From the NCBI RefSeq assembly GCF_001579945.1, contig NZ_CP011971.1, positions 2,568,001-2,632,000 on the forward strand: 64,000 nucleotides of DNA, given 5' to 3'. The notes under the pieces were generated by a model. That model searched no databases and had not been told where the DNA came from. It saw only the letters and a list, made by a program, of their open reading frames with translations. Position 1 is the first letter of the stretch. Each line of letters opens with the position of its first letter. Both the position numbers and the translations under genes were made by a program. This DNA is from Steroidobacter denitrificans. Its GTDB lineage: Bacteria; Pseudomonadota; Gammaproteobacteria; Steroidobacterales; Steroidobacteraceae. Shown piece by piece: positions 1 to 56,666 of this stretch.

Positions 1-679
1 ATAGAATCTCGTAATAGGGTTTACCGTCCAGACCCGCCGGCATCGTCAGGTACGACCAGCCGAACGCCAGCAGCGCCACTGCCGTGGACACCACGCTCGC
101 ATTCAGCCCGAAACGCAGCGCGCCGCCGCCATCGAAGGTCACACCCAGCTTGGGCGCGGTGAACAGGCTGCGCAACACCAGCATTGCACCGCCGGCCGCG
201 AACACCACCAGCCCCGTGATGAACCAACCATCGTCGAGCACCGGGATGTAGTTGGCCATGATGGCTTCACCCCGGCCAAAAAACGGCGCCAGCGACATCA
301 GCACCGCGCCGGCAGTGCACAGCGCCAGCGCGAACCATGCCCATGCCAGTCCCCGCTCCGAGCCGTTGATACTCCACAGCAGACCCGCGAGCGCCACAAA
401 CCAGACAAGCACTGACAAATCGACGTGGACAACCAGGGCAACCCGGAAGAAATCCACGACCGGAAACCACTCGTTGATCACCGGAGTGCGCGACAGCACC
501 AGCAGCACCGAAAACAATCCTGCACCGATCAGCGCCAGCAGTCCCAGCCATAACCAGCTGCGCGCCAGCGTCCGTTGTGCTCCCTCGGGAATGACCAGCA
601 GATAATCGTCGAACGAAGCTGCATTCGGCCGTACATCATGCATCGCCAAGTCGATCGAAGTCCCGGCAGTAGTATTCAT
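1..679 (-). CDS. Heme-copper oxidase subunit I-like protein (3' end outside window)
   Basis: The reverse strand is open from an ATG at 679 to the window edge, giving the first 226 residues of a polytopic membrane protein. Hydrophobic segments lie near residues 41-62, 76-102, 112-128, 150-167 and 187-205. The segment HVDLSVLVWF around His85 resembles the helix-II heme-ligand region of heme-copper oxidase subunit I, more like cbb3/NorB-type proteins than aa3. The ATG overlaps the TGA of the upstream gene by 4 nt (ATGA), so it is the last visible gene of the minus-strand oxidase operon. The CuB and high-spin-heme ligands would lie beyond the window, so whether it is catalytic cannot be judged. 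It could be a second subunit I or a heme-only paralogue. Confidence 0.7.
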   Translation of the reverse strand, partial: MNTTAGTSIDLAMHDVRPNAASFDDYLLVIPEGAQRTLARSWLWLGLLALIGAGLFSVLLVLSRTPVINEWFPVVDFFRVALVVHVDLSVLVWFVALAGLLWSINGSERGLAWAWFALALCTAGAVLMSLAPFFGRGEAIMANYIPVLDDGWFITGLVVFAAGGAMLVLRSLFTAPKLGVTFDGGGALRFGLNASVVSTAVALLAFGWSYLTMPAGLDGKPYYEIL

Positions 680-1179
680 TGCAATGTAATTCCACCTTTT
701 TCGGCGCTGAAATCGATCACCAGGATCTGCGCCGGTTTCAGGCTAAGCACTTCATTACGCTCGAAATCAAATCCCTCGGTACGCATGCTGTCCCGAAGTC
801 TGACATCCAGACGATGAGTGCCGGCAGGAACTTCGATGCGCTGATACACGGAGGCGGCGCCGTCGCGAGACAGCCCGGAAGGTTGCGCCGTCTTGCGCAA
901 GGCGGCGACGCCGTCGATATCGACTTCGACCGTGATCGGCGAGCGTTCGCGCGGGCAAGCCATCGGCGCACGCATGTTCGGCGGCAGTTTTGCCAGTTCC
1001 TCCGGAGTCATTTTCTTGCATTCCTGCAGCCGCTGACCGTGATGAATCAAGCTGAGCTTGATCAGGGCATGATCCTCCGGCAGATGCTGATACGCCGGCC
1101 AGTGCGAGAACACACCGATGAACAGTGCGAAAGCCGCATACAACACCACCTGCCCGATCCATGAAAACACTTTGGTCAT
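676..1179 (-). CDS. Membrane-anchored protein of unknown function in the oxidase operon
   Basis: A protein of 167 residues with one N-terminal hydrophobic segment (about residues 5-25) followed by a soluble, presumably periplasmic domain. Two cysteines (in the stretches ECKKM and MACPRE) lie about 24 residues apart and could form a disulphide or a metal site. I recognise no family. The ATG at 1179 sits in a TGATG overlap with the preceding cytochrome b fusion gene, and the 3' end overlaps the next gene by 4 nt, so it is translationally coupled on both sides. That makes a structural or assembly role in the complex likely. A GTG at 1182 would add one residue. Confidence 0.75.
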   Translation of the reverse strand: MTKVFSWIGQVVLYAAFALFIGVFSHWPAYQHLPEDHALIKLSLIHHGQRLQECKKMTPEELAKLPPNMRAPMACPRERSPITVEVDIDGVAALRKTAQPSGLSRDGAASVYQRIEVPAGTHRLDVRLRDSMRTEGFDFERNEVLSLKPAQILVIDFSAEKGGITLQ

Positions 1180-2720
1180 CACGCTCCTCGTCTCCGTCGG
1201 CGGATCACGCCGGTTCCAAGGGAAAGTGGCAGTTCGCGCAGAACACCCAAGGCAGTCTGCAACGATTTTTCATCTCCCCGGTCGGCCCATACGACCTGAA
1301 GCCGCTCTCGCGGCACGCGCGCGCGCAGCCACGGCTTACGCTTGCCCTGCAGACGCTCTGCAGTCCAGCGGTTGCCCAGGCGGAATTCGCAGCCGCTCTC
1401 GCGGCATCCTGTGACCACCACGCCCGTGGCGCCGGACCGCAATGCATATTCGATGAAGGACGGCGGCAGCATGCCCGTGCAAAGCAGGCTGAATGCCGCC
1501 ACATCGGCTGCCTCCATCGCCTTTACACGGGCGCCGCAGTCGCAGCCGAACACTATGATCTTGCGCTCACCCTGCAGCGTTGCCAGACACGCCTGCAACT
1601 GTCTGCGCAACGCATCGATCGGCGCCTGCGGCATATCGATACCGGTCGTCAATCGTTCGGTGCTGCGGAAAGGTGTCGAGGATGGACAGGCACCGGCGCA
1701 AATGCCGCAGCTCGCGCACAGTTCCTCATGCACCAGCGCCAGCTCCTTGCCCGGCGTACCGTCAGGATGCGGCAGCATGGTGATCGCCGCGTACGGACAA
1801 TCATCGAAGCAATGCCGGCAGCCGCTGCAGTTGTCAGGGTCAACCTGGGCGACCGGCGGCCGAGCGGCGCGCACTGTAAACGGCAGCAAGAACAGCAGCA
1901 GCAGCGCGCCCATCGACAGTGCCCAGGTCCATCCGGCCGACGTGGCGTACATCAGCGGATGAATGAACAGCAGCAACCAGTCGATGGTCAAGGCGCCCTG
2001 CGCAACCGAGAGATCGGCCGGCGCCTGGCTCAGGACCGGAGCGAACAGCGCCAACAACAACAGTGTGACCGCGGCGCCGATCGCCAGAGGCTTTGACGGC
2101 AGCATTTCGGCATGTGAAATACGCTGGACGTGAAACCACGCCAGAAAGAGCAGCAACAGCGAGGCGCCAATGTGGACGAACACGAACAACGAGAACAGGC
2201 GATCGGTGACCGCCTCATTGCTCAAAAAATTGCGCGTGAACGGTGAATTGAAGATCGGTAGCCAGTCGAGCAGCTCCGCCGTCGCGGTCGCCGAGAACTG
2301 TCCGATCTGATCCCATTTCAACCAAAATCCCCCGATGCCGCAGATATAGGCGAACAGCAGCAGCGGCACCCCGGTAAACCATGAATAGCGGCGAAAGCCG
2401 CGGAAATGCCCCAGCAACCACTCCCGCACCAGGTGCAGTACCGTGACCGTCACGAATGCGTCGGCTGCATAGCGATGCAGGCTGCGCAGCAGACCGCCCA
2501 ACCACCACTGGTTACGCGACAGATCATCGATGGAACGATATGCGCCGGCGACCGACGTATCGAGCACTGCATACAAATAGATGCCGCTGAGGGCCAGTAG
2601 CCAGAAAAACAGAAACGCGAGCGCACCGAGGTGTCGCAGCGGATTCAGGGTACCGCCGAACAGGGTATCCAGAACTCGTTCACAGTGGTTCCAGACAGCG
2701 AGGACGGATTCACGCATCAT
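1179..2720 (-). CDS. Cytochrome b / 2x[4Fe-4S] ferredoxin / MvhD-like fusion protein
   Basis: A 513-residue fusion. Residues 30-280 are membrane spanning and carry four histidines (His82, His96, His183, His197) with the 14-residue spacing of the di-heme core of bc1/b6f cytochrome b. Residues 295-350 hold two [4Fe-4S] motifs: Cys298, 301, 304, 308 (CxxCxxCxxxCP) and Cys335, 338, 341, 345. Residues 385-490 resemble the hydrogenase iron-sulfur subunit MvhD, with FGCDCG and further cysteines at 414, 439 and 444. It should move electrons between membrane quinol or hemes and a soluble partner. The ATG at 2720 overlaps the SCO stop (ATGA); the open frame extends further upstream but would run deep into the SCO gene. 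It lies in a heme-copper oxidoreductase operon, so it may be the electron-input module. Confidence 0.85.
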   Translation of the reverse strand: MMRESVLAVWNHCERVLDTLFGGTLNPLRHLGALAFLFFWLLALSGIYLYAVLDTSVAGAYRSIDDLSRNQWWLGGLLRSLHRYAADAFVTVTVLHLVREWLLGHFRGFRRYSWFTGVPLLLFAYICGIGGFWLKWDQIGQFSATATAELLDWLPIFNSPFTRNFLSNEAVTDRLFSLFVFVHIGASLLLLFLAWFHVQRISHAEMLPSKPLAIGAAVTLLLLALFAPVLSQAPADLSVAQGALTIDWLLLFIHPLMYATSAGWTWALSMGALLLLFLLPFTVRAARPPVAQVDPDNCSGCRHCFDDCPYAAITMLPHPDGTPGKELALVHEELCASCGICAGACPSSTPFRSTERLTTGIDMPQAPIDALRRQLQACLATLQGERKIIVFGCDCGARVKAMEAADVAAFSLLCTGMLPPSFIEYALRSGATGVVVTGCRESGCEFRLGNRWTAERLQGKRKPWLRARVPRERLQVVWADRGDEKSLQTALGVLRELPLSLGTGVIRRRRRGA

Positions 2721-3619
2721 CCACAGTTCATTGGCCGGCGTGACGCTGCACGGCTGCGCCACTCCGACAGAGCAAACCAAAGCATGGCAATGAAGAACGT
2801 CACACCACCGGCAATCATGAAGTACAGGGTGTAATCGGCTCGATAGGCGCCGGTCTTCGGATCGTATACCGAGCACAGAATGCGTACTCGATCGATGAGA
2901 TCCGTGAACCCGACATCGCCATCGATGATCCGCATACCCGTGAGCAACTGCTTCAACGGCTCACCGATTTTGGCGGCAGTGAAGCTGTCGCCATAGATCT
3001 GCCGGTAGATCTTCCCGTCCGCATCCAGCACGCTGACCTGCAGCGTATGATCGAAACCGCCCGGCGTAGGGATATAAGTGAAACCGAAATCACGGCTAAG
3101 CGCCGCCACATCAGCGGCATCCGGACTCAGGAATTCCCAGTTCGGATCGTCGATACGCAGTTGCGACGCATAAGCCTTGAGCGCCGTCGGCGAATCCTCC
3201 GGCTGGTTGAAACCGATGGTGATGACGTTGAACTGCTTGTCGCCGAAGCGCTTGTGCATGGAGCGCACGGCCTTGTGAAGCGCCTGTGTACTGGCCGGAC
3301 AAATGTGAAAACAGCCCGTATAGATGAAATTCGCCAGCAGCGGCTTGCCGCGATAGTCCGATAACCGGACAGGCCGTCCTTCCCGATCGCGCAGCGTATA
3401 ATCATCCGGCGTATGGCCTACAGCGGCTCTACTTGCGCGCAGCGCTGCTTGGCCGTCGAGTCCTGCCGTGGCTACGGCGTCGCGTGCCAGGCCGGCCTGA
3501 TGCGGTCGCGCCGCCTGATGCGCAGCCGCTGACGGCACGTGGCCGCCGACACCGAATACTGCCAGCAACAGGCTCAGTACCACCGGACGTATCCAGGCGG
3601 ACATCTGCAATACCTTCAT
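2717..3619 (-). CDS. SCO family copper chaperone (SenC/PrrC-like), first copy
   Basis: A 300-residue thioredoxin-fold protein. A hydrophobic N-terminal signal or anchor (about residues 8-33) precedes the SCO domain. The copper ligands are visible: Cys103 and Cys107 in the CxxxCP motif (TGCFHICP) and a distal His191 in GGFDHT. The C-terminus has an extra membrane helix (about residues 267-287) that short SCO proteins lack. SCO proteins deliver copper to or reduce the CuA site of subunit II, which fits the CuA subunit encoded upstream. It follows the heme O synthase gene by 14 nt and overlaps the cytochrome b fusion by 4 nt. Confidence 0.92.
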   Translation of the reverse strand: MKVLQMSAWIRPVVLSLLLAVFGVGGHVPSAAAHQAARPHQAGLARDAVATAGLDGQAALRASRAAVGHTPDDYTLRDREGRPVRLSDYRGKPLLANFIYTGCFHICPASTQALHKAVRSMHKRFGDKQFNVITIGFNQPEDSPTALKAYASQLRIDDPNWEFLSPDAADVAALSRDFGFTYIPTPGGFDHTLQVSVLDADGKIYRQIYGDSFTAAKIGEPLKQLLTGMRIIDGDVGFTDLIDRVRILCSVYDPKTGAYRADYTLYFMIAGGVTFFIAMLWFALSEWRSRAASRRPMNCG

Positions 3620-3633
3620 CGACTCTTACCGCA

Positions 3634-4530
3634 CTACCGTATCACTGCATCGATACTCGCTGCGATCAGTAGTACGCTCAGTTGCACCAGTGAAGCGAAG
3701 AAAGCGCGCATCGCCGCATCCCTGCCCGGCGCAAGCGCCAGCGTGCGGGCCTTCGCAATGAAATACAGGCCGCCGCCCAGCGCCCCGGCCAGATAGATCA
3801 GCCCGGCGCCGTAAAAGACCGGCAGAACCGATACCGCGATGAGAACCACCGTATTGCCGTACACGACCCGAGCAGCGCGTTGCGGACCGATCGCGACCGG
3901 CAGCATAGGTACGCCGGCGGCAGCATAATCGGCATGATTGGCGATCGCCAGGCTCCAGAAGTGCGGCGGCGTCCACAGGAATAGAATGAGCGCCAGCAGC
4001 GCCGGCAGCGGTCCGATCGCAGGATCGACGGCAGCGGCACCGGCAAGTACGGCAAAGCTCCCGGCGAGGCCGCCGATCACGATGTTCAACCAGGTGCGCC
4101 GCTTGAGCCAGACCGTGTAGACCACCGCATAAAAAAACGCCCCCAGAAACACATACGCCGCCGCGACCGGATTGAGAACCAGCCCGGCAAGCACGACCGC
4201 TCCTGCAAGCATGACGCCGATCATCGCCAGCCACGCAGGCGAGTGCGGCAATGCGCCGGTGGCGAAGGCGCGCCGCCGCGTGCGCGCCATCAGCCGGTCG
4301 GTTTCATGCTCGAAGTACTGATTGAAGGCACCGGCGCTCGCCGAAGCGATGAGCACGGACACCGCCAGCGCGATCACCTGCATCAGACTGAGCGACGGAC
4401 CCGGCGTGATCGCCAAGCCGACCAGCGCAGTGATCATGATGAGCACACCGATCCTGAGCTTGAACAGCCCCAGAATATCGCGCGACAACTGCATCATGCT
4501 GCGAGCAGTCGGCACAGGCATCGTCGTCAT
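3634..4530 (-). CDS. ctaB: Protoheme IX farnesyltransferase (heme O synthase)
   Basis: A 298-residue UbiA-type polytopic prenyltransferase that farnesylates heme B to heme O, the precursor of heme A. It carries the family motif in NQYFEHETDRLMARTRRR (about residues 90-107), with the Asp that binds prenyl diphosphate through Mg2+. About nine membrane segments and normal length agree with CtaB/CyoE. Its place between the subunit I gene and SCO suggests that the oxidoreductase uses a farnesylated heme (o or a). The 94-nt gap to the upstream subunit I gene contains a strong hairpin. Confidence 0.95.
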   Translation of the reverse strand: MTTMPVPTARSMMQLSRDILGLFKLRIGVLIMITALVGLAITPGPSLSLMQVIALAVSVLIASASAGAFNQYFEHETDRLMARTRRRAFATGALPHSPAWLAMIGVMLAGAVVLAGLVLNPVAAAYVFLGAFFYAVVYTVWLKRRTWLNIVIGGLAGSFAVLAGAAAVDPAIGPLPALLALILFLWTPPHFWSLAIANHADYAAAGVPMLPVAIGPQRAARVVYGNTVVLIAVSVLPVFYGAGLIYLAGALGGGLYFIAKARTLALAPGRDAAMRAFFASLVQLSVLLIAASIDAVIR

Positions 4531-4624: not shown

Positions 4625-6325
4625 TCAGCTCAGCCCCCAAAGCGTCGAGAGATACTTCCAGTTGATGAAGTAATAAAGGACGAAGGCGACCAGGAAGATC
4701 ATCGCGAGTGTGAAAGTGCCGGGTGCGACGAAGCCCATCGAGCCGTAGGTCTGCGCAGCGGCTGCCGGCGCCGTGGGCGGAATCGGCGTCACCTTCTGAC
4801 TCTTCTCGCCGCTCTCGAGCCGCTTGCCCCACAGCAGGGAACCAACGGTGACATAGATGTAGATCGCACCGCCGACGATCGCCACGACACCACCGATGCC
4901 GACCAGGCCCATCATCATGTAGGCTGCGCCGGGCCACTCATACGCCAGCGCGGAACCGTCGAAGGCCATGTCCCAGTGCCGGCGCGAGACACCCAGAGTG
5001 CCCGCCCCCATCATCACCAGACAGAAGAAGTACATCGACAATCCGAACAGGTACGGCTGCCATTTCGCCAGTGTCGGCGCGATCATCTCACGCTTGAACA
5101 GCACCGGAATCAGGTAGTAGGTCAACGCCATGAAGGTCAGCGTGGTGCCCACCACGACCGTAGCGTGGAAATGTCCTGGTACGTAGATCGTGTTGTGAAT
5201 GATCATGTTGAGCTGTTCCGTGCCCATCATGACTCCTGAGATTCCGCCCAGGAAGCCGAAACCGATAATCGAGATGAATACGCCGGAGAATACCGGATTG
5301 CCCCAGGGCGCCTTGCGCAACCACTCGAACAATCCCTTGGTGAATCCCTTCTGACGCTGCGCGACTTCCATCGCCCCCGGAATGGTGAGGCCATGGATCA
5401 TCGAAGCCAGCACCGCGAAATACATGAAATAGCTGGTGTTGACCACCTTCCACTCCGTGCTCACGCCGGGATCGGCCAGCAGGTGATGCGCACTCGCCAG
5501 CTGCAGGAACAGGATATAAAGCAGGAACGCGCCGCGGCTGACGCGCTCCGACATCGGCCGGGCGCCGAACACCACGGCGGCAACCAGATACCAGATCGAA
5601 ATGTGCGCCGCCACGTTGATCTGCTGAGAGGAGTGGCCGAACGCCCACCAGATCATACGATAGATCAGCGGATCCACATGTTCGACGAAGCCGATCGACT
5701 GCAGATACGTCGGAATCAGGATGATCGCCCCCGAGACGATCGTGAAGACCGCAATGATACAGGCGACAATCGCACCGAAGGTCACCAGCGGTACGGACCC
5801 CTGATAGGTCTTGTCGCGCTTGGCGATCACCAGCGTGCCGAAAAATACGAAGCAGCCGATCAGCGCTCCGACGGCAAACAGGATCAGCCCGAGATAGAAC
5901 GACGGCGCGGCCATCATCGGCACATACGACGTCATCATCACGCTCGAGCCGCCCTGATAGACGGCAACGTTGTTCACCACCGCACCGATGAACATCAGCG
6001 CAAATGCGAACCAGGCGATCCTGGGCGTCGCTATCCGGCAGCGCAGCAGCGTCGATGAACAGAAATATAGAACGGCGATTTCGAAAAAGATGATCCAATA
6101 GATCAGCATGTTGATGCCGTGAGCGGTCAACACCTGATAGAACGTGGCCGCTTCCAGCCAGTGCACCGCTGGCCATCGTGTGAGCACCACGCCGATGGCC
6201 AGCAACCCGCCGATCAGCAGGCAAACCACTGCCGCCACGGCATTGGCCAGAATCAGTTTTTCCGCCTGAGCCTCGAATTGAAGGCCCGAGCGCGGGCAGA
6301 TCCGATAAGTCGTTGCGCTAGACAT
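4625..6325 (-). CDS. Heme-copper oxidoreductase subunit I lacking the active-site tyrosine (candidate alternative NO reductase)
   Basis: A 566-residue polytopic protein of the heme-copper superfamily. The low-spin heme ligand His69 (LTAHG), CuB ligands His231, His280 and His281 (GHSSQQ; SAHHLL) and heme ligands His377, His385 and His387 (HNTIYVPGHFH) are present. In oxygen reductases of families A and B the motif is HPEVY, with the cross-linked Tyr four residues after the CuB His. Here that position is Gln235 (HSSQQ). Loss of this Tyr is a feature of proposed alternative NO-reductase families (gNOR, nNOR, sNOR, eNOR types), so either an O2 reductase or an NO reductase is possible. The start is supported by AAAGGAAG before the ATG. 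A CuA subunit lies upstream and ctaB downstream. Confidence 0.9.
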   Translation of the reverse strand: MSSATTYRICPRSGLQFEAQAEKLILANAVAAVVCLLIGGLLAIGVVLTRWPAVHWLEAATFYQVLTAHGINMLIYWIIFFEIAVLYFCSSTLLRCRIATPRIAWFAFALMFIGAVVNNVAVYQGGSSVMMTSYVPMMAAPSFYLGLILFAVGALIGCFVFFGTLVIAKRDKTYQGSVPLVTFGAIVACIIAVFTIVSGAIILIPTYLQSIGFVEHVDPLIYRMIWWAFGHSSQQINVAAHISIWYLVAAVVFGARPMSERVSRGAFLLYILFLQLASAHHLLADPGVSTEWKVVNTSYFMYFAVLASMIHGLTIPGAMEVAQRQKGFTKGLFEWLRKAPWGNPVFSGVFISIIGFGFLGGISGVMMGTEQLNMIIHNTIYVPGHFHATVVVGTTLTFMALTYYLIPVLFKREMIAPTLAKWQPYLFGLSMYFFCLVMMGAGTLGVSRRHWDMAFDGSALAYEWPGAAYMMMGLVGIGGVVAIVGGAIYIYVTVGSLLWGKRLESGEKSQKVTPIPPTAPAAAAQTYGSMGFVAPGTFTLAMIFLVAFVLYYFINWKYLSTLWGLS

Positions 6326-6344
6326 TGTGCCGCTTCCTTTATCT

Positions 6345-6884
6345 TTATCGTACGTAGAGGCGGCCGACCATCATGTGGTGGCCGATTCCGCAATATTCAT
6401 TGCATACGATGGAAAATTCGCCGCTCTGGTTGGGCGTCACCGTCAACACATGCTCGTAGCCGGGTACGATCTGAATATTGAGATTGGTCGGCTGCAGCGA
6501 AAAGCCATGGTTGTAGTCCATGGAGGTAAGGTGCAGACGGTAGGTCTTGTCTTTTTCGAGCTCGAGAATCGGCCAAAAATTCCACAGCCGGGCGATCAGG
6601 TAGATATCGCTGCCGGCAGGCGGCGCCACCACCGGGATCTCCAGATCGGTTTCGGTCCGGACGGTGTACTGATCGACCATGGCCTGCGCATTGGCGATGA
6701 ATGCATCGGGCGTGGTCTTGTAGGTCTCGGTCGACAGGTTCTGATCGCCGTAGACGTGCCATAGCACCATCATGAAAAACATGACCATGCACCAGACGAA
6801 GGCAAGGGCGATCCAGGTACCCTCGACACGATCGATCGGGTGCTTCCACCACAGCCGGTCCGCCGGCGGTAAAATTGCGCTCAT
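6345..6884 (-). CDS. Heme-copper oxidoreductase subunit II with CuA site
   Basis: A 179-residue subunit II with one N-terminal membrane anchor (about residues 24-45) and a periplasmic cupredoxin domain. All CuA ligands are visible: His126 (DYNHGF), Cys161, Glu163 and Cys165 (CNEYC), His169 and Met172. A single helix and short length resemble the ba3-type subunit II rather than the two-helix aa3 form. It accepts electrons from a cytochrome c or cupredoxin. The start has a strong GGGGAGG ribosome-binding site. It is transcribed 19 nt ahead of subunit I. Confidence 0.93.
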   Translation of the reverse strand: MSAILPPADRLWWKHPIDRVEGTWIALAFVWCMVMFFMMVLWHVYGDQNLSTETYKTTPDAFIANAQAMVDQYTVRTETDLEIPVVAPPAGSDIYLIARLWNFWPILELEKDKTYRLHLTSMDYNHGFSLQPTNLNIQIVPGYEHVLTVTPNQSGEFSIVCNEYCGIGHHMMVGRLYVR

Positions 6885-6973
6885 TGACGCTTCCTCCCCA
6901 AATCCTTTGTCATGCTCTTGTTAAGGATGCGCGGATGCATCCCAATGATCACACGGCTGAATTCACGCATGAA

Positions 6974-7135
6974 TTACGGTGCGACCGGTATCGTCAGAAT
7001 GTCGATGACACCCCACAGCGTATAAATGATCATCGGGATCATCACACCGAGGAACAATAATAGAAACGGATTGTCGAGGAGCTGCTGCACCAGCGGAACC
7101 TTCTCGTCGTTTTCGTTGTGATCGTTGTCGCTCAT
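6974..7135 (-). CDS. 53-residue single-helix membrane peptide, first gene of the oxidase operon
   Basis: The small frame starts with MSDNDHNENDEK, a very acidic N-terminus, followed by one long hydrophobic helix (about residues 23-50) and stops with TAA. AGGAG lies five bases before the ATG. Position and topology resemble the small accessory subunits of oxidases, such as subunit IIa of ba3 oxidases or CcoQ-like peptides, but sequence similarity cannot be claimed from inspection. It is 89 nt upstream of subunit II and very probably the first cistron. Confidence 0.72.
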   Translation of the reverse strand: MSDNDHNENDEKVPLVQQLLDNPFLLLFLGVMIPMIIYTLWGVIDILTIPVAP

Positions 7136-7716
7136 GAAAACTCCTGAAGCCACCCGTAAGAAATGGAACTGGCGGGACGGCTAAAGATAGCTATTTCCTA
7201 TGTAAATGACACCGGCTTCTATGATCTGGATCAGGAACGAAGCAGATACCAATCTGGTATTGCGAAAGCGCAATTCATCTACCAGGTATGTTTCAGGCCG
7301 ATGCCGTCCGCCCTTATGGACTCGCCCTTATGATATTCGATGGATAGTCGGTGGATAGTCGAATTATATCGCCCTTGGCCGCAGTCTTTCCCGCCGACCG
7401 TCGATGGCCCGCAGGATACAGACCAAGACTCTGAGAAACAATAAATTATCGCCTGCCGAAGAATCTGCACCACTGGCGACCGGCCCGGTCCGCCGGGGCG
7501 ACAATGCGATCTGCCGCCGTCCATCCGGTGAACGGCGGCGGGACGGCCGAGAGCTATGGAAGGCCGCTCTTTTCAGGGTATTTCCTAATACGGCATGAGG
7601 CTGAAGATGAATGACCCCGATGAATCGATGGAGACGAAACCTGACGGATTTTCACGCCTCCCCGCTTGACGTGCCGTCCGCTTGACGTGGCGCGTCCACA
7701 GGCCAAAGCTTCGGTG
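7136..7716. other. Intergenic region between the oxidase operon and pncC
   Basis: About 580 bases without a convincing gene. It must contain the divergent promoters of the oxidase operon and of pncC. Visible elements are an FNR/Anr-like palindrome at 7222-7233, the inverted repeat ATACCA-ATC-TGGTAT at 7246-7260, the overlapping hairpin ATTGCG-AAAG-CGCAAT at 7259-7274, and a tandem GGATAGTCG-type repeat near 7338-7360. No clear sigma-70 promoter could be chosen. Confidence 0.5.
7221..7234 (-). promoter_or_regulatory. Candidate FNR/Anr/Dnr site of the oxidase operon
   Basis: On the minus strand the sequence reads CTGATCCAGATCAT. It contains the core TGAT-N4-ATCA of the FNR consensus TTGAT-N4-ATCAA, with only the two outermost bases deviating. 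It lies about 87 nt upstream of the first ATG, a distance usual for an activator site at -40. Oxygen- or NO-responsive activation of the downstream operon is inferred. Confidence 0.45.
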
Positions 7717-17074: not shown

Positions 17075-18052
17075 GTGCCAACCCGTCTTCTGAAATGGCT
17101 TTTCGGCAGTCTCGCCAGCCTGATACTGGCTGTCGCCGCAGGCGCGCAGACACCGACCGACCCGGGACGTGTGCTGTTCGAACAGCTGTGTGTCGCGTGC
17201 CATAGCATAGGTGAAGGTGACCGTGTCGGCCCCGATCTGGCCGGCGTCACCCAGCGGCGCGATGAGGCATGGATCGGGCGGATGATTCGCGAGCCCGATG
17301 CCATGATCGCCGCGGGCGACCCGGTCGTCACCGCCCTGGTCAAACGCTTCAACGGCATCATCATGCCCAGGCTCGGGCTGGACGAAGCCCAGGCCGAGGC
17401 GCTCGTGGCTCACTTGCGGGCACTGGATGCCGGTGCCGCCATGACGACGCCGGCACTAGTCTACGACACGCCCGAACTGATGCCGTCGCAGGCGCTGGTG
17501 TGGCGCATGTTCCTGCTGATCGGCGCGCTGATTGCACTGGTCTTTGCGGCCGTCGCCTTCAGCACCAACCGTCCACGCGAGGTCAGCATTGCACGTGCCT
17601 ATGGTCTGCGCCGGGCACTGTTCCTGGCGGCACTGGCCGCGGCCATCGGCATACTTGCAACGACCTTGCCCAAAACGCCATACGCAGCCCATGGCAGTGC
17701 CGCGGTTGCCGACGTCGATCGCATCATCTATGTCGCCGGACGTCAGTTCGAGTTCATCTGGTCGGATGAGCCGATCGTCAGCGCTGCGGATATCGGCCGT
17801 GTACCGCGCCTGCATCAGCTGACGATCGATCCAGGCGCGACAGTGGAATTTCGCGTCACCAGTCTCGATGTCAACCATGGCTTCGGCTTGTACGGACCAC
17901 AGCGTCAGATCGTGGCACAGACCCAGGCCATGCCCGGCTATGTCAATCGCCTGCGGGTGCGGCTGGATGAGCCCGGCGAATATGCCGTGCTGTGCATCGA
18001 ATATTGCGCTGCTGCACATCACCGCATGCGTAACAGCTTGATCGTGCGGTGA
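17075..18052 (+). CDS. Cytochrome c-CuA subunit II fusion (NorS/CoxB-like)
   Basis: A 325-residue protein with an unusual domain order. A signal peptide (to about residue 24) is followed by a class I cytochrome c domain with CVACH (Cys39, Cys42, His43) and a likely Met97 ligand (IIMPRL). Two membrane helices (about 141-162 and 180-197) and a CuA cupredoxin domain follow, with His268 (DVNHGF), Cys307, Glu309, Cys311, His315 and Met318. In most caa3 oxidases the cytochrome c is attached after CuA, not before it. The start is GTG with GAGGG nearby. It precedes subunit I by 26 nt and should be its electron-input subunit. Confidence 0.92.
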   Translation: MPTRLLKWLFGSLASLILAVAAGAQTPTDPGRVLFEQLCVACHSIGEGDRVGPDLAGVTQRRDEAWIGRMIREPDAMIAAGDPVVTALVKRFNGIIMPRLGLDEAQAEALVAHLRALDAGAAMTTPALVYDTPELMPSQALVWRMFLLIGALIALVFAAVAFSTNRPREVSIARAYGLRRALFLAALAAAIGILATTLPKTPYAAHGSAAVADVDRIIYVAGRQFEFIWSDEPIVSAADIGRVPRLHQLTIDPGATVEFRVTSLDVNHGFGLYGPQRQIVAQTQAMPGYVNRLRVRLDEPGEYAVLCIEYCAAAHHRMRNSLIVR

Positions 18053-18078
18053 ATGCCATGACACAGGAGACACAAATT

Positions 18079-19497
18079 ATGCAAACCGCGAACCGCCAGA
18101 TCTTGCGCTGGATGCCGGTGGTGTTCGTGCTGTTCCCGATCCTGATCCTGCTCGGAGCGTTCATGCGCTCGGTGCAAGGTGGCGTGCTGTCCGAATTCGA
18201 AAACTGGTTCTATCCGGTGATGACTCTGCACGGTGTCGGCATGGTCGGGCTGTGGTATGTCGCCGCGATGGCCATCGCCGCCGATCTGTTGACTCGTTAT
18301 GTACGGCCCTCGCCGGCGGTCGCCAACCTCGCCCTGTGGGGCACCGTGCTCGGTGTGGTGTTGCTGCTGGCGAGCGTATTCCTGGGCCGATACGCAGCCG
18401 GCTGGTATTTCTTGTATCCACTGCCGTTCAAGGGCGAGTGGCCGGCCTGGTCGAACGTGGTGTTCCTGCTTTCGCTGACGGTGCTCGGCGCGGTCTGGCT
18501 GGTTTGGACCTTCGATCTATTGCGGGCGATCGCCAGCCGCTACTCGCTGCCGCAGGCGCTGGGCTGGCATTACATCGCCGGACGCAGCGAGCCGGCGGTG
18601 CCGGCAGCCGTGCTGATCATCACCATCAGCCTGATCTCCGGCGTGGCCGCATTGGTGTCGGCAGTGATCCTGATGGTGCTGTTCTTCCTCGAAATATTCA
18701 CCGGCATCGCCAACGATCCGCTGTTGATGAAAAACCTGACCTTCTTTTTCGGTCATACCATCATCAATCTGGCAATGTACCTGGGTGTTGCCGCTGCCTA
18801 CGAGATCCTGCCGCACTACGCCGGACGGCCGTGGAAAAACAACCGCGTGGTGGCAATCGCCTGGAACTGCGTGCTGCTGATCGTTCTGTTCGCCTACTTT
18901 CATCATTTATATATGGACTTTGTGCAGCCCGGTCCGCTGCAGTACATCGGCCAGATCGCTTCCTATGCAAGCGCGGTCCCCTCCACGATCGTCACACTGT
19001 TCGGCGCGCTGCTGCTGGTGTTCCACGCCCGCATGCGCTGGAATCTGACCTCGATCCTGCTGTTTCTGGGGCTGGCCGGTTGGGCCATCGGCGGCATCGG
19101 CGCGATGATCGATTCCACCATCAGCGTCAACGTGCGCCTGCACAACACACTGTGGGTACCGGCGCACTTCCATACCTACAATCTGGCAGGACTGGCATTC
19201 CTGGTGCTGGCCTACTTTCATCACGTGTGCCAGAACGCCACCGGGCTGCCGGAAAACCGCTTACTGCAACGCGCCTCGGCACTGACGATGACCCTCGGTG
19301 CCTATGGGGTGTTTTTGATGTTCTATCTCGCCGGCGCGTATTCGATACCGCGCCGTTTCGCCCTGTATCCGGCAGAATTGGCCCACGGCACCGGCTACGC
19401 CTTCTGGGGCATGCTGTGCGCCCTGTTGTTCCTGCTCGGCTTCCTGCTCTATCTAGGCGAAACCGGCCGCCGCTGGTGGCGGGCGCTCGCAGCTTAG
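18079..19497 (+). CDS. Heme-copper oxidoreductase subunit I lacking the active-site tyrosine (NorY-like)
   Basis: A 472-residue membrane protein with the heme-copper core: His51 (TLHG), CuB ligands His226, His275 and His276 (FGHTIIN; YFHHLY), and heme ligands His355, His363 and His365 (HNTLWVPAHFH). The residue four after the CuB His, Tyr in A- and B-type oxygen reductases, is Asn230. The gene set (CuA subunit, this protein, SCO protein) matches norS-norY-senC of ammonia oxidisers, proposed to encode an alternative NO reductase. The ATG at 18079 is chosen because AGGAGA lies eight bases upstream; GTG 18049 and ATG 18058 are alternatives. It is unlike the 4625-6325 protein in length and motifs, so this is a separate enzyme. 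Confidence 0.9.
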   Translation: MQTANRQILRWMPVVFVLFPILILLGAFMRSVQGGVLSEFENWFYPVMTLHGVGMVGLWYVAAMAIAADLLTRYVRPSPAVANLALWGTVLGVVLLLASVFLGRYAAGWYFLYPLPFKGEWPAWSNVVFLLSLTVLGAVWLVWTFDLLRAIASRYSLPQALGWHYIAGRSEPAVPAAVLIITISLISGVAALVSAVILMVLFFLEIFTGIANDPLLMKNLTFFFGHTIINLAMYLGVAAAYEILPHYAGRPWKNNRVVAIAWNCVLLIVLFAYFHHLYMDFVQPGPLQYIGQIASYASAVPSTIVTLFGALLLVFHARMRWNLTSILLFLGLAGWAIGGIGAMIDSTISVNVRLHNTLWVPAHFHTYNLAGLAFLVLAYFHHVCQNATGLPENRLLQRASALTMTLGAYGVFLMFYLAGAYSIPRRFALYPAELAHGTGYAFWGMLCALLFLLGFLLYLGETGRRWWRALAA

Positions 19498-19500
19498 ATC

Positions 19501-20292
19501 GTGCGTCGCTTGATCCTGCTCCTGGTGCCGGGGTTGCTTGCCCTGGCCGTCATCCCGACCGCCACCCTGGCGGCGACGGAGATTGCACCCTTGCCCGCGA
19601 CTGGAGCCGAAGCACGACTCGAGGGCAGACCGGTACCGGATATCCCCTTGCAGCTGGCCGATGGCCGTAAACGGATGCTGTCGGATCTGAGCCGGGAGCA
19701 GGCCTTGCTGGTGACCTTCTTTTATCGGCGATGTGCCGGCGTGTGCATGCCCTTCCTGGAATGGATCAACAACGCCATCATGGAAGTCGGCGGCCTGGGC
19801 AGCGACTACCAGGTATTGGCACTGAGCTTCGATGAAGCCGACACCGTCACCGATCTGCTCGCCCAGGCACGCGTCTTCGGATTGCTCGGCAACCGCGATT
19901 GGCACTTCGCGGTCACCGATCGGGCGGCGCTTGCCGGCATCACCGAGGCGCTGGACTTCTGGTACCGGCGTCAAGGCAGCTCGAACCAGTACGATCATGG
20001 GTCATTACTGGTGGCCATTCGTAACGGACGTGTGATCCGCGCACTCAGCGGCGGGCCGGGACAGACCCAGCGCCTGCGCGAACTGGTCTGGGAGCTGCGC
20101 GGTCGAGTCACGTCCTACTATGCAGTGGACAACCGGCCGATATTGCGTTGTCTCGATTTCGATCCGCGCACCGGTACGCCGCGGCTGGACTGGGGCATGC
20201 TGCTGCTGGTCACCCCGGCGTTGGCTTCATTGGCGGCGGCGATAAGCGTATTCCGCCCGCGCCGGCATCGCTCCGGAATCCTACGGTCCTGA
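19501..20292 (+). CDS. SCO family protein (SenC-like), second copy
   Basis: A 263-residue protein with an N-terminal signal sequence or anchor, then a thioredoxin-like SCO domain with Cys79 and Cys83 in RRCAGVCMP and the distal His in QYDHGS. A C-terminal hydrophobic helix (about 231-250) recalls the first SCO copy. It likely matures the CuA centre of the fusion subunit II. The GTG start is three bases after the subunit I stop. The 3' end overlaps the convergent regulator gene by 12 nt. Confidence 0.9.
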   Translation: MRRLILLLVPGLLALAVIPTATLAATEIAPLPATGAEARLEGRPVPDIPLQLADGRKRMLSDLSREQALLVTFFYRRCAGVCMPFLEWINNAIMEVGGLGSDYQVLALSFDEADTVTDLLAQARVFGLLGNRDWHFAVTDRAALAGITEALDFWYRRQGSSNQYDHGSLLVAIRNGRVIRALSGGPGQTQRLRELVWELRGRVTSYYAVDNRPILRCLDFDPRTGTPRLDWGMLLLVTPALASLAAAISVFRPRRHRSGILRS

Positions 20293-21765
20293 TCGGATTG
20301 CATGCATGCTCGGCAGACGCCTCTGTTCGACGATCTTGCGTAGCAGTGCATCGTGCCAATCGCTGTCGAAGGCACTACGCTCGCGCGCCTCGGCCAAGGC
20401 TGCCAGCGCCGCGTCGACCCTGCCTTGACGTAGATACAGGTCCACCAGCAGGCGCAACGCCTCGCGATACCGGTCACGGAAGCGTTGCCTCGGCGCTTCG
20501 AAGGCGATGTCATCGGCATCGGCAAACAACTCGCCCCGGTACAGCGGCAGCGTCTGTTCCAGACAGCGGAGCGCCTCGGCCGAATCGCCTCGATGGGCGC
20601 AGCGGCGGGCTTCGTCCAACGCATCGGCGAATTGGAATGCATCCACCGCTCCCAGGATGTCGATGTCCAGCCGATAATGACCATGCCGATGCTGAATGAG
20701 ACGCGCACCTGCATCAGGCAGCGTCTGTCGCAGGACACCGCGCAGGGCGTGTAGAGCGACGTGCAGACGATTGGCACCGGTGTCCGGATCGACTTCCGGC
20801 CACAGATACTCGATCAAGGTATCGCGCGACACTGCGGCGCCGCGCGCCAGAAGCAGATGGCGAAGCAGATCGAGCGCCTTACGCCGAGGAAAGCCGGCAA
20901 CACCCAGCGTCCCGGTCTCAGCGACAATGGCGAATGCGCCCAGGCAACGTATCGTTACGGCGGCGGGCGAAAGCTGCGGCGCGCCGCAGGTCAGACGGGC
21001 AGCGGCCACCGCGATCGGACGTGCCGCCTCGAGCAGATGCAGGATCCAGTCGAGCGGGACGGCGCCCTTCCAGGCGAGCCCGAGATAACCGATGACCCGA
21101 TCGCTTTCGATCAATGGAACGCCGACAAAGGTGCGGATACCTCGCTGCTTGACAGCCGCACGCTGAAAGCGACGATCCCCCTGAAAACACGTCGTGGACA
21201 GCGGCTTGCCGGTGGCGGTGATCCATCCCGGGTAGCCGATCCCGAGCGGCATCCGGGTGCGCTCCAGGAAGGCGGCGCGATCCTGGCCCACACAGCCGCG
21301 CAAGGCGACTTCCTGCTCTCCCGGACCGAGCAGGAACATCTCGCAGTCGTCGGCAGCGCAGGCTCGACGGATCGCCTCCAGCGTGTCCTCGAGCGAACCT
21401 TGCGCCAGACCTTCGGCCAGCGCCCCGCGCAACATCACCCATTCCAGCTGCGCGCTGCCGACAGGACCCTCGGCGATCAACGCCGGCGGCGACCACACCA
21501 ACCAGCCGCAGCCCCCCGAAGGAGCGCGCAGACGCGCGCAGTGGCTCGTTGGCGAAGCATGCTCGTGATCGCCATCGAGGCAGGCCTGGCAGTTGGCATG
21601 CCCGGCCAGCAGCTGCCAGCAGGGCCGGCCCCTGGCCTGGATCTCCGGAATGTCCAGCGTACGGGCAATGGCCTCCGGCCAGACTTGGATCCGCATCTGT
21701 TCATCGATGACGAAATGCGGCCGAAAGCGCTCAGAACTTATCGCGATGGTAGGCAGATTTTGCAT
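20281..21765 (-). CDS. PAS-GAF-BTAD (SARP-like) transcriptional regulator
   Basis: A 494-residue regulator. Residues 1-100 look like a PAS sensor with a cysteine cluster (Cys49, Cys59, Cys62, Cys76, Cys86), as in PAS domains carrying a CxxC after the core. Residues 125-255 resemble a GAF domain. Residues 270-360 form an OmpR-type winged helix (PRRKALDLLRHLLLARG; LWPEVDPDTGANRLHVALHALR). Residues 370-480 are a BTAD tetratricopeptide-like domain. Redox or metal sensing through the cysteines is inference. It converges on the norSY-senC-like locus and is divergent from the semialdehyde dehydrogenase gene, either of which could be its target. Confidence 0.82.
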   Translation of the reverse strand: MQNLPTIAISSERFRPHFVIDEQMRIQVWPEAIARTLDIPEIQARGRPCWQLLAGHANCQACLDGDHEHASPTSHCARLRAPSGGCGWLVWSPPALIAEGPVGSAQLEWVMLRGALAEGLAQGSLEDTLEAIRRACAADDCEMFLLGPGEQEVALRGCVGQDRAAFLERTRMPLGIGYPGWITATGKPLSTTCFQGDRRFQRAAVKQRGIRTFVGVPLIESDRVIGYLGLAWKGAVPLDWILHLLEAARPIAVAAARLTCGAPQLSPAAVTIRCLGAFAIVAETGTLGVAGFPRRKALDLLRHLLLARGAAVSRDTLIEYLWPEVDPDTGANRLHVALHALRGVLRQTLPDAGARLIQHRHGHYRLDIDILGAVDAFQFADALDEARRCAHRGDSAEALRCLEQTLPLYRGELFADADDIAFEAPRQRFRDRYREALRLLVDLYLRQGRVDAALAALAEARERSAFDSDWHDALLRKIVEQRRLPSMHAIRSGP

Positions 21766-54600: not shown

Positions 54601-54743
54601 GCTCCCGCGGCTGGTACGGAACTCTCCTGGTGGATTCCCGAATCATTCGTATCGCAATGTCATAAGACACTTAGACATATGATCGTTCGGTGTTCCTACG
54701 ATTCACCGGCCTGAAAAGATCGTCTTTCACTGGAAATCATGAC

Positions 54744-56666
54744 GTGACCAAAACCAAAGAACCCACTGAAAACACCGCACTGGATGATGCGGGACGCAGA
54801 AATTTCCTGAATACCGCCGCATTCGCCGGCTTGGCCGGCGCGTCGCTGGGGCTTGCCGGCTGCCAGCCCGATGGTGAAGGCGGCGCGACTTCCACGGGCG
54901 GAAGCATCGATTACGGCAAGTACCAGGTCCATCCCGGCCAGCTGGATGAGTACTACGCATTCTCCAGCGGCGGTCATTCGGGCGAAGTACGCATTTATGT
55001 GCTGCCCTCCGGCCGTCTGCTGAAGCGCATCCCGGTCTTCAATATCGATTGCATGACGGGTTGGGGAATCACCAACGAGTCCAAGAAAATACTCGGCACC
55101 CATCCCGACGGCACCCTGAAGTATTGGACCGGCGATACGCATCATGTGCATCCGTCCTACACCGACGGCACCTACGACGGCCGTTACCTGTTCGTGAACG
55201 ACAAGATCCATGGCCGCATTGCGCGCGTACGCCTGGATACGATGGAATGCGACAAGATCACCGAGCTGCCGAACATTCAAGGCTTCCACGGTATCTTTCC
55301 CGACAAGTGCGATCCGCTCGACAGCGCCGTCAACTACACCACGCGGGTATTTTGCGGCAGTGAATTTCACACCCCGCTACCCAACGACGGCCGCGATCTG
55401 GACGATCCCACACGCTATTCCTGCGTGTTCACCTGCGTCGATGCCGAGACCCTGGAGCCGCGCTGGCAATGTCAGGTCGACGGCAACATGGATCTGGTCG
55501 CCACGTCCTATGACGGCAAGCTGGTCTGCTCGAACCAGTACAACACCGAAGGCGGTGCGGTGTTCGCCGACATGATGTTGCGGGAACGCGATGCCTGCGT
55601 ATTCCTGAATGTCGCGCGCATCGAAGCGGCGGTAAAGGCAGGTAAAACCTTCACGATCGGCGACTCGAAAGTCCCGGTGGTCGACGGAACGCAAGCGGCG
55701 AACGCCGATCCGGCGACGGCGCTGACTTGCTATGTACCGGTGCCGAAAAATCCGCACGGCGTGAACATCAGTCCTGACGGCAGGTACTACGCCTGTTCCG
55801 GCAAGCTGTCGCCGACGGCCACACTGATCGCCCATGATCGCGTACTGCAATGGTTCGAGGGCCGCCTGCAGGATCCGCGCGAGGCCGTGGTCGCCGAGCC
55901 GGAGATCGGTCTGGGCCCGCTGCACAGTGCATTCGACAACCGCGGTTTCTGCTACACCACTTTGTTTCTGGATAGCCAGATCGTCAAATGGAATATCGAG
56001 GCGGCGATCAAAGCCTATCAGGGCGACTCGTCGGCGCAGGTGGTCGTCGATCGTCTCGATGTGCATTACCAGCCCGGACATGGTTTCACCTCGATGGGCG
56101 AGACCCGTGAAGCAGACGGCAAATACTTCATCTCCGACAATAAATTCGCCAAGGATCGCTTCCTGCCGGTCGGGCCGCTGCATCCGGAGAATTCGCAGTT
56201 GATCGATATCAGCGGCGACAAAATGAAGCTGGTGCACGACACTCCGGTATGGTCGGAACCCCATGATTCGATCGTGGTCCGCCGCGACATCATCAAGACC
56301 CGGCAGATCTACAACATGGACGATTTTCCGCACGCGGTAAAATCGCCCCTGGACTGCCGCGTCGAACGCAACGGCCGCAAAGTCACCGTGTATCTGACTT
56401 CGCAGGCACCGACCTTCGGCTTGACGGAATTCAAGGTAAAGCGCGGCGATGAGGTCACGATCATCCTCACCAATCACGACAAGGTAGAGGATCTGACCCA
56501 CGGCTTCGCAATTCCGAAGCACAACATCAATTTCATCGTCAACCCGCAGGAAACCAAGTCCGTGGCCTTCATCGCCGACAAGCCGGGGGTGTACTGGTGC
56601 TACTGCACGCACTTCTGTCACGCGCTGCATCTGGAAATGCGTTCGCGTATGCTGGTCGAAGCATAA
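54744..56666 (+). CDS. nosZ: Nitrous-oxide reductase NosZ (Tat-exported, clade I type)
   Basis: A 640-residue periplasmic enzyme that reduces N2O to N2. A twin-arginine signal (Arg18-Arg19, GRRNFLNTAAF) marks the clade I type. The seven-bladed propeller with CuZ histidines (GDTHHVHPSYTDG and later HGVNIS, HGFTSM) is followed by the CuA cupredoxin with Cys621, Cys625, His629 and Met632 in CTHFCHALHLEM. The GTG at 54744 gives a standard signal peptide. NosZ is the first gene here, ahead of nosR, whereas the common order is nosR-nosZ. Confidence 0.97.
   Translation: MTKTKEPTENTALDDAGRRNFLNTAAFAGLAGASLGLAGCQPDGEGGATSTGGSIDYGKYQVHPGQLDEYYAFSSGGHSGEVRIYVLPSGRLLKRIPVFNIDCMTGWGITNESKKILGTHPDGTLKYWTGDTHHVHPSYTDGTYDGRYLFVNDKIHGRIARVRLDTMECDKITELPNIQGFHGIFPDKCDPLDSAVNYTTRVFCGSEFHTPLPNDGRDLDDPTRYSCVFTCVDAETLEPRWQCQVDGNMDLVATSYDGKLVCSNQYNTEGGAVFADMMLRERDACVFLNVARIEAAVKAGKTFTIGDSKVPVVDGTQAANADPATALTCYVPVPKNPHGVNISPDGRYYACSGKLSPTATLIAHDRVLQWFEGRLQDPREAVVAEPEIGLGPLHSAFDNRGFCYTTLFLDSQIVKWNIEAAIKAYQGDSSAQVVVDRLDVHYQPGHGFTSMGETREADGKYFISDNKFAKDRFLPVGPLHPENSQLIDISGDKMKLVHDTPVWSEPHDSIVVRRDIIKTRQIYNMDDFPHAVKSPLDCRVERNGRKVTVYLTSQAPTFGLTEFKVKRGDEVTIILTNHDKVEDLTHGFAIPKHNINFIVNPQETKSVAFIADKPGVYWCYCTHFCHALHLEMRSRMLVEA

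Follow-up and report, generated by a model that had tools for sequence, protein, structure and literature searches.

A glutamine-bearing heme-copper complex of Steroidobacter denitrificans as a probable eNOR-type nitric oxide reductase within an extended gene cluster

Three genes at positions 4625–7135 of a 64,000-nucleotide stretch of the Steroidobacter denitrificans genome encode a heme-copper complex that is, with good confidence from sequence comparison, an eNOR, that is, a heme-copper nitric oxide (NO) reductase related to the B-type oxidases. This stretch, the whole of which is called the window here, corresponds to C1:2568001–2632000 of the single contig of 3,467,246 bases that makes up the source genome. 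Subunit I is a further member of a described NO reductase family, the family itself being already known. The genes lie on the minus strand, in a cluster whose transcription order starts at a 53-residue peptide and ends beyond window base 1. Judged by their parts, subunit I, the CuA-bearing subunit II, and the small peptide probably constitute a complete eNOR-type NO reductase:

4625–6325, minus strand: heme-copper subunit I, assigned to the eNOR type, 566 residues, with Gln235 for the cross-linked Tyr (Pfam COX1, 218.6 bits; alignment, tree, and structure matches)
6345–6884, minus strand: CuA subunit II, 179 residues (Pfam COX2, CuA motif; homologue in 82 of 83 loci)
6974–7135, minus strand: membrane peptide, 53 residues, with the ATG at 7135 as the preferred start and an alternative one at 7153 (homologue in 81 of 83 loci)

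The loci counted here comprise three plasmid loci and 80 genome contigs, the latter being the best 80 of 484 confirmed ones, i.e., the nearest relatives, every one at least 69% identical. These contigs were retrieved with two peptide patterns, neither of which contains the glutamine motif, and the gene order is mostly conserved. Loci with the cluster include L122 from Castellaniella defragrans and L098 and L108 from Simplicispira.

The assignment to eNOR is based on the glutamine that marks this family, on a single clade shared with Thermus and Thermomicrobium homologues, and on the matches to B-type structures. The sequence-only reading of this DNA had stated that subunit I keeps all six heme and CuB histidines, which is confirmed by alignment to ba3, aa3, and cbb3 rows (His69, His231, His280, His281, His385, and His387), the ligand numbering of the ba3 and cbb3 rows being taken as given. 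It had also pointed to an HSSQQ motif with Gln235 in the place of the cross-linked tyrosine, and the main alignment of 52 heme-copper proteins bears this out. This alignment, from which none was dropped, holds 14 rows of the glutamine group, eight B-type, four A-type, two cbb3, nine asparagine-group, and one cNOR row, as well as homologues without the CuB histidine pair (CuB-less homologues). The residue four places past the first CuB histidine, glutamine in subunit I, is a tyrosine in the 12 A- and B-type rows of oxygen (O2) reductases, asparagine in all nine rows of the asparagine group, and glutamic acid in the sole cNOR row, whereas all 14 rows of the glutamine clade hold glutamine. A replacement was sought at the place of the cross-linked helix VII tyrosine of the C-type enzymes and rejected, as residue 274 is leucine in subunit I and tyrosine in both cbb3 rows. 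Thus, neither known tyrosine is present in subunit I.

In the passages of PMC8756737 drawn on, eNOR subunit I is marked by a conserved glutamine where the oxygen reductases have tyrosine, the same place being held by Asn in sNOR, Asp in gNOR, and Glu in cNOR and qNOR; the family, treated there after Hemp and Gennis, is reported in Proteobacteria, with a cupredoxin subunit II. The membership in the alternative NO reductases that had been proposed from the sequence can, by this published criterion (PMC8756737, in the same passages) together with the clade, be narrowed to eNOR; membership in sNOR is rejected, the residue being glutamine and not asparagine. Excerpts of other papers count eNOR as a biochemically characterised family (PMC11388526), find it in Gallionellaceae (PMC10734462), and include it in a reference set (PMC12569097).

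Gln235 is no sequencing oddity, because glutamine is found there not only in the 14 rows of the clade but also in 83 of the 83 scanned loci, where the motif reads H[S/T][S/T]QQ in 81 and HGAQQ in two. The preceding Gln234 is, like Gln235, invariant in a 16-sequence alignment that includes the window protein; Gln234, Asn237, Tyr246, Ser308, and His311 are invariant among the 14 glutamine rows. Place 311 separates these rows from the eight B-type ones, which hold threonine.

The 14 glutamine rows form one clade in the 52-protein tree (support 97/95), among them the homologues carried on plasmids of Thermus thermophilus and of Thermomicrobium roseum, each 45% identical to subunit I. This clade, the clade of the CuB-less homologues, and the B-type oxidases make up a larger group (99/98), and the glutamine group is still a single clade, with a value of 100 in the Shimodaira–Hasegawa-like approximate likelihood-ratio test (SH-aLRT), once the long-stemmed CuB-less rows are removed. 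In both trees subunit I lies outside all the O2 reductase clades tested, so its membership in any of them is rejected; this was the phylogenetic check proposed along with the sequence-only reading. In other parts of the tree, long branches come together (the asparagine group with the A-type rows, and cNOR with the C-type rows), so the placement of the asparagine group is unsure. The plasmid-borne relatives examined carry the annotation of cytochrome c oxidase subunits. Two of them, the Thermus thermophilus plasmid eNORs L156 (8980–10665) and L209 (5983–7665), have the helix-X motif HFK instead of HFH, and the Thermomicrobium homologue retains HFH.

Among solved structures, B-type oxidases match subunit I best, in sequence as well as in fold. 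With the ba3 oxidase of Thermus thermophilus it shares the fold, the six histidine ligands, and similarity across most of its length, but it lacks the active-site tyrosine. ba3 has a one-helix CuA subunit and a small subunit. Similarly, subunit II of the window complex, encoded directly upstream of subunit I as in the eNORs, shows a single hydrophobic stretch (residues 20–46) and the CuA motif CNEYCGIGHHMM, in agreement with the one-helix CuA subunit first read from the sequence. The tiny membrane peptide noticed at that stage likewise holds up; an AGGAG precedes its ATG at 7135, and a hydropathy scan of the 59-residue reading reveals two adjoining hydrophobic stretches from residue 21 to the end, which presumably form one helix. 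It occupies the same place as the small subunit of ba3, and we take it to be comparable to ba3 subunit IIa.

The sNORs, exemplified by NorSY from Nitrosomonas and by Ruegeria (Silicibacter) pomeroyi, share with this complex a CuA subunit II, an SCO gene, and the absence of the active-site tyrosine, but they hold asparagine instead of glutamine and form a separate clade, which takes a second complex of the window. cNOR and qNOR have in common with it the superfamily and the proposed reaction, and differ in the glutamic acid at the key place and, as far as the passages of the sources drawn on go, in their electron-entry parts. With the described eNORs, the complex shares the glutamine for the active-site tyrosine, the CuA subunit II just upstream, and the kinship to B-type oxidases; unlike the fetched Thermus and Thermomicrobium stretches, the S. 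denitrificans cluster adds two cytochrome b fusions, a 168-residue protein, and a CuB-less homologue. The sequence-only reading was silent on the cluster beyond its first three genes, which continues as follows:

3634–4530, minus strand: heme o synthase (CtaB/CyoE; TIGR01473, 254.7 bits, cut-off 210.3)
2717–3619, minus strand: SCO1/SenC-type protein (PF02630)
1179–2720, minus strand: fusion of a membrane cytochrome b with 4Fe-4S motifs and an FlpD-like domain (Pfam; alternative start at 2876; 56 of 60 well-flanked loci)
676–1182, minus strand: 168-residue protein with one hydrophobic stretch and no family match in Pfam or NCBIfam (60 of 60 well-flanked loci)
1–679, minus strand: N-terminal part of the CuB-less heme-copper homologue, which runs past the window (genome C1:2567216–2568679; 58 of 60 well-flanked loci)

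Beyond the window, the cluster goes on with a second cytochrome b, which is joined with 2Fe-2S, FAD, and NAD domains (FNR-type; 56 of 60 well-flanked loci). The well-flanked loci are the 60 of the 80 contigs, all proteobacterial, with at least 8 kb beyond subunit I, and a gene was counted regardless of its strand and of its place in the fetched stretch. In a smaller set of 21 loci, the own genome's included, the small peptide, subunit II, subunit I, and the SCO protein are common, and the later genes are often missing or cut at contig ends. In a Defluviimonas stretch, the FlpD-type fusion and the 168-residue protein are present, but the FNR-type fusion and the CuB-less homologue are missing.

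The mechanism proposed here is based on the ligand set of subunit I. Electrons would enter from a periplasmic carrier, probably through the CuA center of subunit II, and would reach first the low-spin heme (His69/His387) and, after it, the high-spin heme (His385) and CuB (His231, His280, and His281), where two molecules of NO, the presumed substrate, would be joined to nitrous oxide (N2O). NO reduction requires no cross-linked tyrosine, as it involves no cleavage of an O–O bond; the tyrosine, whose place is occupied by Gln235, would thus be dispensable. CtaB and the SCO protein of the cluster would provide heme o—the presumed heme type—and copper. The cytochrome b fusions and the CuB-less homologue may serve the complex, possibly as an entry route on the cytoplasmic side for the electrons of NAD(P)H or ferredoxin; the homologue itself could be a partner of the complex or, instead, a factor in assembly.

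The CuB-less homologue was analyzed in 81 distinct sequences (83 before the removal of two duplicates), 60 of which come from the named loci, 20 from other genomes, and one from the own genome. The heme ligands His85, His371, and His373, the first CuB histidine (His232), and Gln235, in its own numbering, are each present in 81 of the 81, and Gln234 is shared with eNOR. A catalytic heme-copper oxidase holds three CuB histidines; in the homologue, the pair is found at its aligned place in none of the 81, the residues there being Ala-Tyr in 46, Ile-Tyr in 10, Ile-His in seven, and others, never His-His. A new histidine, His418, appears in 80 of the 81. Other histidines occur near the lost pair: HH slightly further on in nine of the 81, a single His at 285 in 34 of the 81, and a single His at 292 in 62 of 83 (a count made before the duplicates were removed). 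An alternative metal site is therefore possible from the sequences, which tells against a simple copper-free reading.

Despite this loss, the predicted fold is that of an oxidase subunit I. The AlphaFold model of a relative (L075) reached a predicted local distance difference test (pLDDT) score of 89.1 and a predicted template modelling (pTM) score of 0.90; with it, the best Foldseek match was a cytochrome c oxidase subunit (E 5.0e-08), and the top VIA-align result had a Z of 30.5 over 427 residues, with a root-mean-square deviation of 3.7. Pfam assigns the homologue to COX1, barely over the cut-off, and no NCBIfam model matches it or four further members. A profile search of the PDB retrieved no heme-copper chain up to an E of 1, and a tblastn search of the plasmid collection gave no match at 1e-5. 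In the tree, its clade is sister to the glutamine group (100/98) on a long stem of length 1.98, which is a weak point; two alternative placements, picked after the tree was known, were rejected by the approximately unbiased test (p-AU 0.020 and 0.011). Among the open-licence papers listed, none was on topic for CuB-less heme-copper proteins and none was, by its listing, about an eNOR cluster with cytochrome b and ferredoxin-type modules; as far as these searches reach, both the family of CuB-less proteins and the extended form of the cluster, conserved as it is, may be new to the literature.

The reading advanced for the homologue, and held only tentatively, is that it represents a separate widespread heme-copper family whose members carry two hemes but have no catalytic role of their own. 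They would belong, as a subunit, to an extended eNOR complex, in which they would carry electrons, bind NO, or take part in heme handling, and which would be supplied by cytochrome b modules of the NAD(P)H and ferredoxin types. The confidence placed in it was lowered slightly because of the other histidines near the lost pair. If the homologue is truly a partner, the heme-copper fold would gain a second use without catalytic copper.

A related proposal, possible although it falls short of even chances, sees the cluster as a system for cytoplasm-fed NO removal, in which the cytochrome b fusions would accept electrons of NAD(P)H or ferredoxin and hand them on, either to the quinone pool or directly to the complex; the homologue would transfer electrons or bind NO as one subunit of a larger assembly. 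The domain make-up of the fusions and their neighbours is in line with it, as are the frequencies of these genes in the well-flanked loci given above. It is also favoured by co-occurrence across 398 genomes of the phylum, of which 31 hold eNOR, 58 the homologue, and 30 both, so that the homologue is found in 30 of 31 genomes with eNOR and in 28 of 367 without it; however, the genomes cannot be taken as independent, because those with eNOR are spread over 12 family codes with 13 entries in one of them (f48), and one (G227) was scored as eNOR from an 84-residue fragment. On the other hand, both cytochrome b fusions, the 168-residue protein, and the homologue are missing from the stretches fetched from Thermus and Thermomicrobium and are consequently not required for eNOR as such. 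The homologue is, moreover, found in places that have no eNOR; in three of eight such loci it lies beside ctaA or near cox genes.

These eight loci outside eNOR clusters bear on another proposal, to which a comparably limited chance is given: that the homologue is no respiratory subunit but an assembly factor for heme-copper enzymes, involved in heme handling or in heme a/o maturation. COX15/CtaA adjoins it in L168 and L178, genes for COX3 and an SCO-like protein lie near it in L170, genes for a ResB-like protein and a multiheme cytochrome are close to it in L167, and within the eNOR clusters it accompanies CtaB and SCO. However, both heme sites are strictly conserved, as in an electron carrier, and in L165, L166, L171, and L177 the neighbours are of other kinds or unmatched (Pfam, only some of the open reading frames being checked). 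In two of the loci, the homologue lies in longer open frames, which are perhaps fusions (L167, 4025–6253, plus strand, 743 residues; L171, 3130–4770, plus strand, 547 residues); the L167 protein is the only one of the 81 without His418.

Upstream of the eNOR genes lies a putative regulatory box:

7221–7234, no strand: FNR/DNR-type palindrome, core TGATCCAGATCA at 7222–7233, with 87 bases between it and the ATG of the small peptide downstream

Of 79 homologous clusters (79 of the 80 contigs yielded an upstream stretch), 37 are preceded by a core of this type, defined as TGAT-4-ATCA or TTGA-6-TCAA, versus 50 of 1580 random control stretches from the same loci. The weight of the box is placed on this cross-locus comparison, because matches across the window are not above chance (22 versus 17 expected; 18 of 100 shuffles reach as many). 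The box fits control by low oxygen or NO, and does not discriminate between NO and O2 reduction.

Several points weigh against the assignment to eNOR. FNR-type boxes also precede high-affinity O2 reductases. The AlphaFold model of subunit I itself is merely fair (pLDDT 67.2, pTM 0.71), and the ligand set varies within the clade, where two Thermus members hold lysine at place 387 of the low-spin heme ligand. Need provides no argument for an eNOR role, because the genome already has a cNOR. Finally, the tree included no Rhodothermus eNOR, nor the Thermus accession named as eNOR in the passages of PMC8756737 drawn on. That the complex is instead chiefly a high-affinity O2 reductase that tolerates NO, with Gln235 as part of another proton or electron route, is nevertheless improbable: the B-type O2 reductases are the nearest characterised group and the best solved structures, the CuB histidine set is complete, and an O2 reductase role has been argued, in the part of PMC6967387 drawn on, for the related sNOR of Nitrosomonas europaea, but the tyrosine is absent from every member examined, the C-type place holds none either, and the Thermus relatives lie near genes of another kind, one adjoined by nirS and an Rrf2 gene and another with multicopper oxidase, Rrf2, and DUF542 genes in its vicinity.

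Regarding the genomic setting of the eNOR-type complex, the sequence-only reading had noted nosZ and no norBC, and had suggested that the complex could supply N2O. The window does hold nosZ and no norBC, but a cNOR, sought elsewhere in the genome, was found at about C1:635–638 kb (L012, 7197–9857), and the missing norBC is therefore rejected as an argument for the eNOR role. A need for the complex as N2O source is further weakened by an sNOR-like complex in the window, which the sequence-only reading did not mention, and a cytochrome cd1 candidate is also present. A profile search with PF00115 retrieved six subunit I genes from the genome, namely aa3, cbb3, the glutamine type, cNOR, the asparagine type, and the CuB-less homologue. 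All 13 solved relatives listed for the cNOR (L004) are NO reductases, and its NorB is preceded by a NorC-like c-type cytochrome of 322 residues with two CxxCH motifs; the usual NorC is shorter. The cytochrome cd1 reductase candidate is an open frame of 743 residues with two CxxCH motifs, and nirK was rejected, as its one match in the genome lies under the family cut-off. The genome's own nosZ, cd1 candidate, and cNOR count in favour of the eNOR reading, as does the enrichment of FNR/DNR-type cores before the homologous clusters. No literature on the NOR genes of this genome was found among the matches listed. The window genes of this setting are:

17075–18052, plus strand: cytochrome c–CuA fusion subunit II of the second complex (domain search, motif scan)
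18049–19497, plus strand: second subunit I, sNOR-like, with Asn for Tyr (alignment, both trees)
19501–20292, plus strand: SCO-like protein belonging to the second complex (unmatched in Pfam; 52 bits against the first cluster's SCO protein)
54690–56666, plus strand: nosZ, TAT-dependent nitrous-oxide reductase (TIGR04244, 1000 bits, cut-off 625)

The genes at 17075–20292 appear to encode a second alternative-NOR-type complex, of the asparagine type and sNOR-like in its sequence features. Its subunit I holds the motif FGHTIIN, is 38% identical to a Ruegeria pomeroyi protein, and groups with it (100/100), yet on a long branch of its own. Ruegeria pomeroyi is presumably the organism formerly called Silicibacter. 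Silicibacter pomeroyi is named among the bearers of sNOR in the passages of PMC8756737 drawn on. With the probable eNOR, the cNOR, and the sNOR-like complex in one genome, three types of NO reductase could be compared in one organism. Right after the asparagine-type complex, on the opposite strand, lies a gene for a regulator with GAF, BTAD, and Trans_reg_C domains (20281–21765, minus strand).

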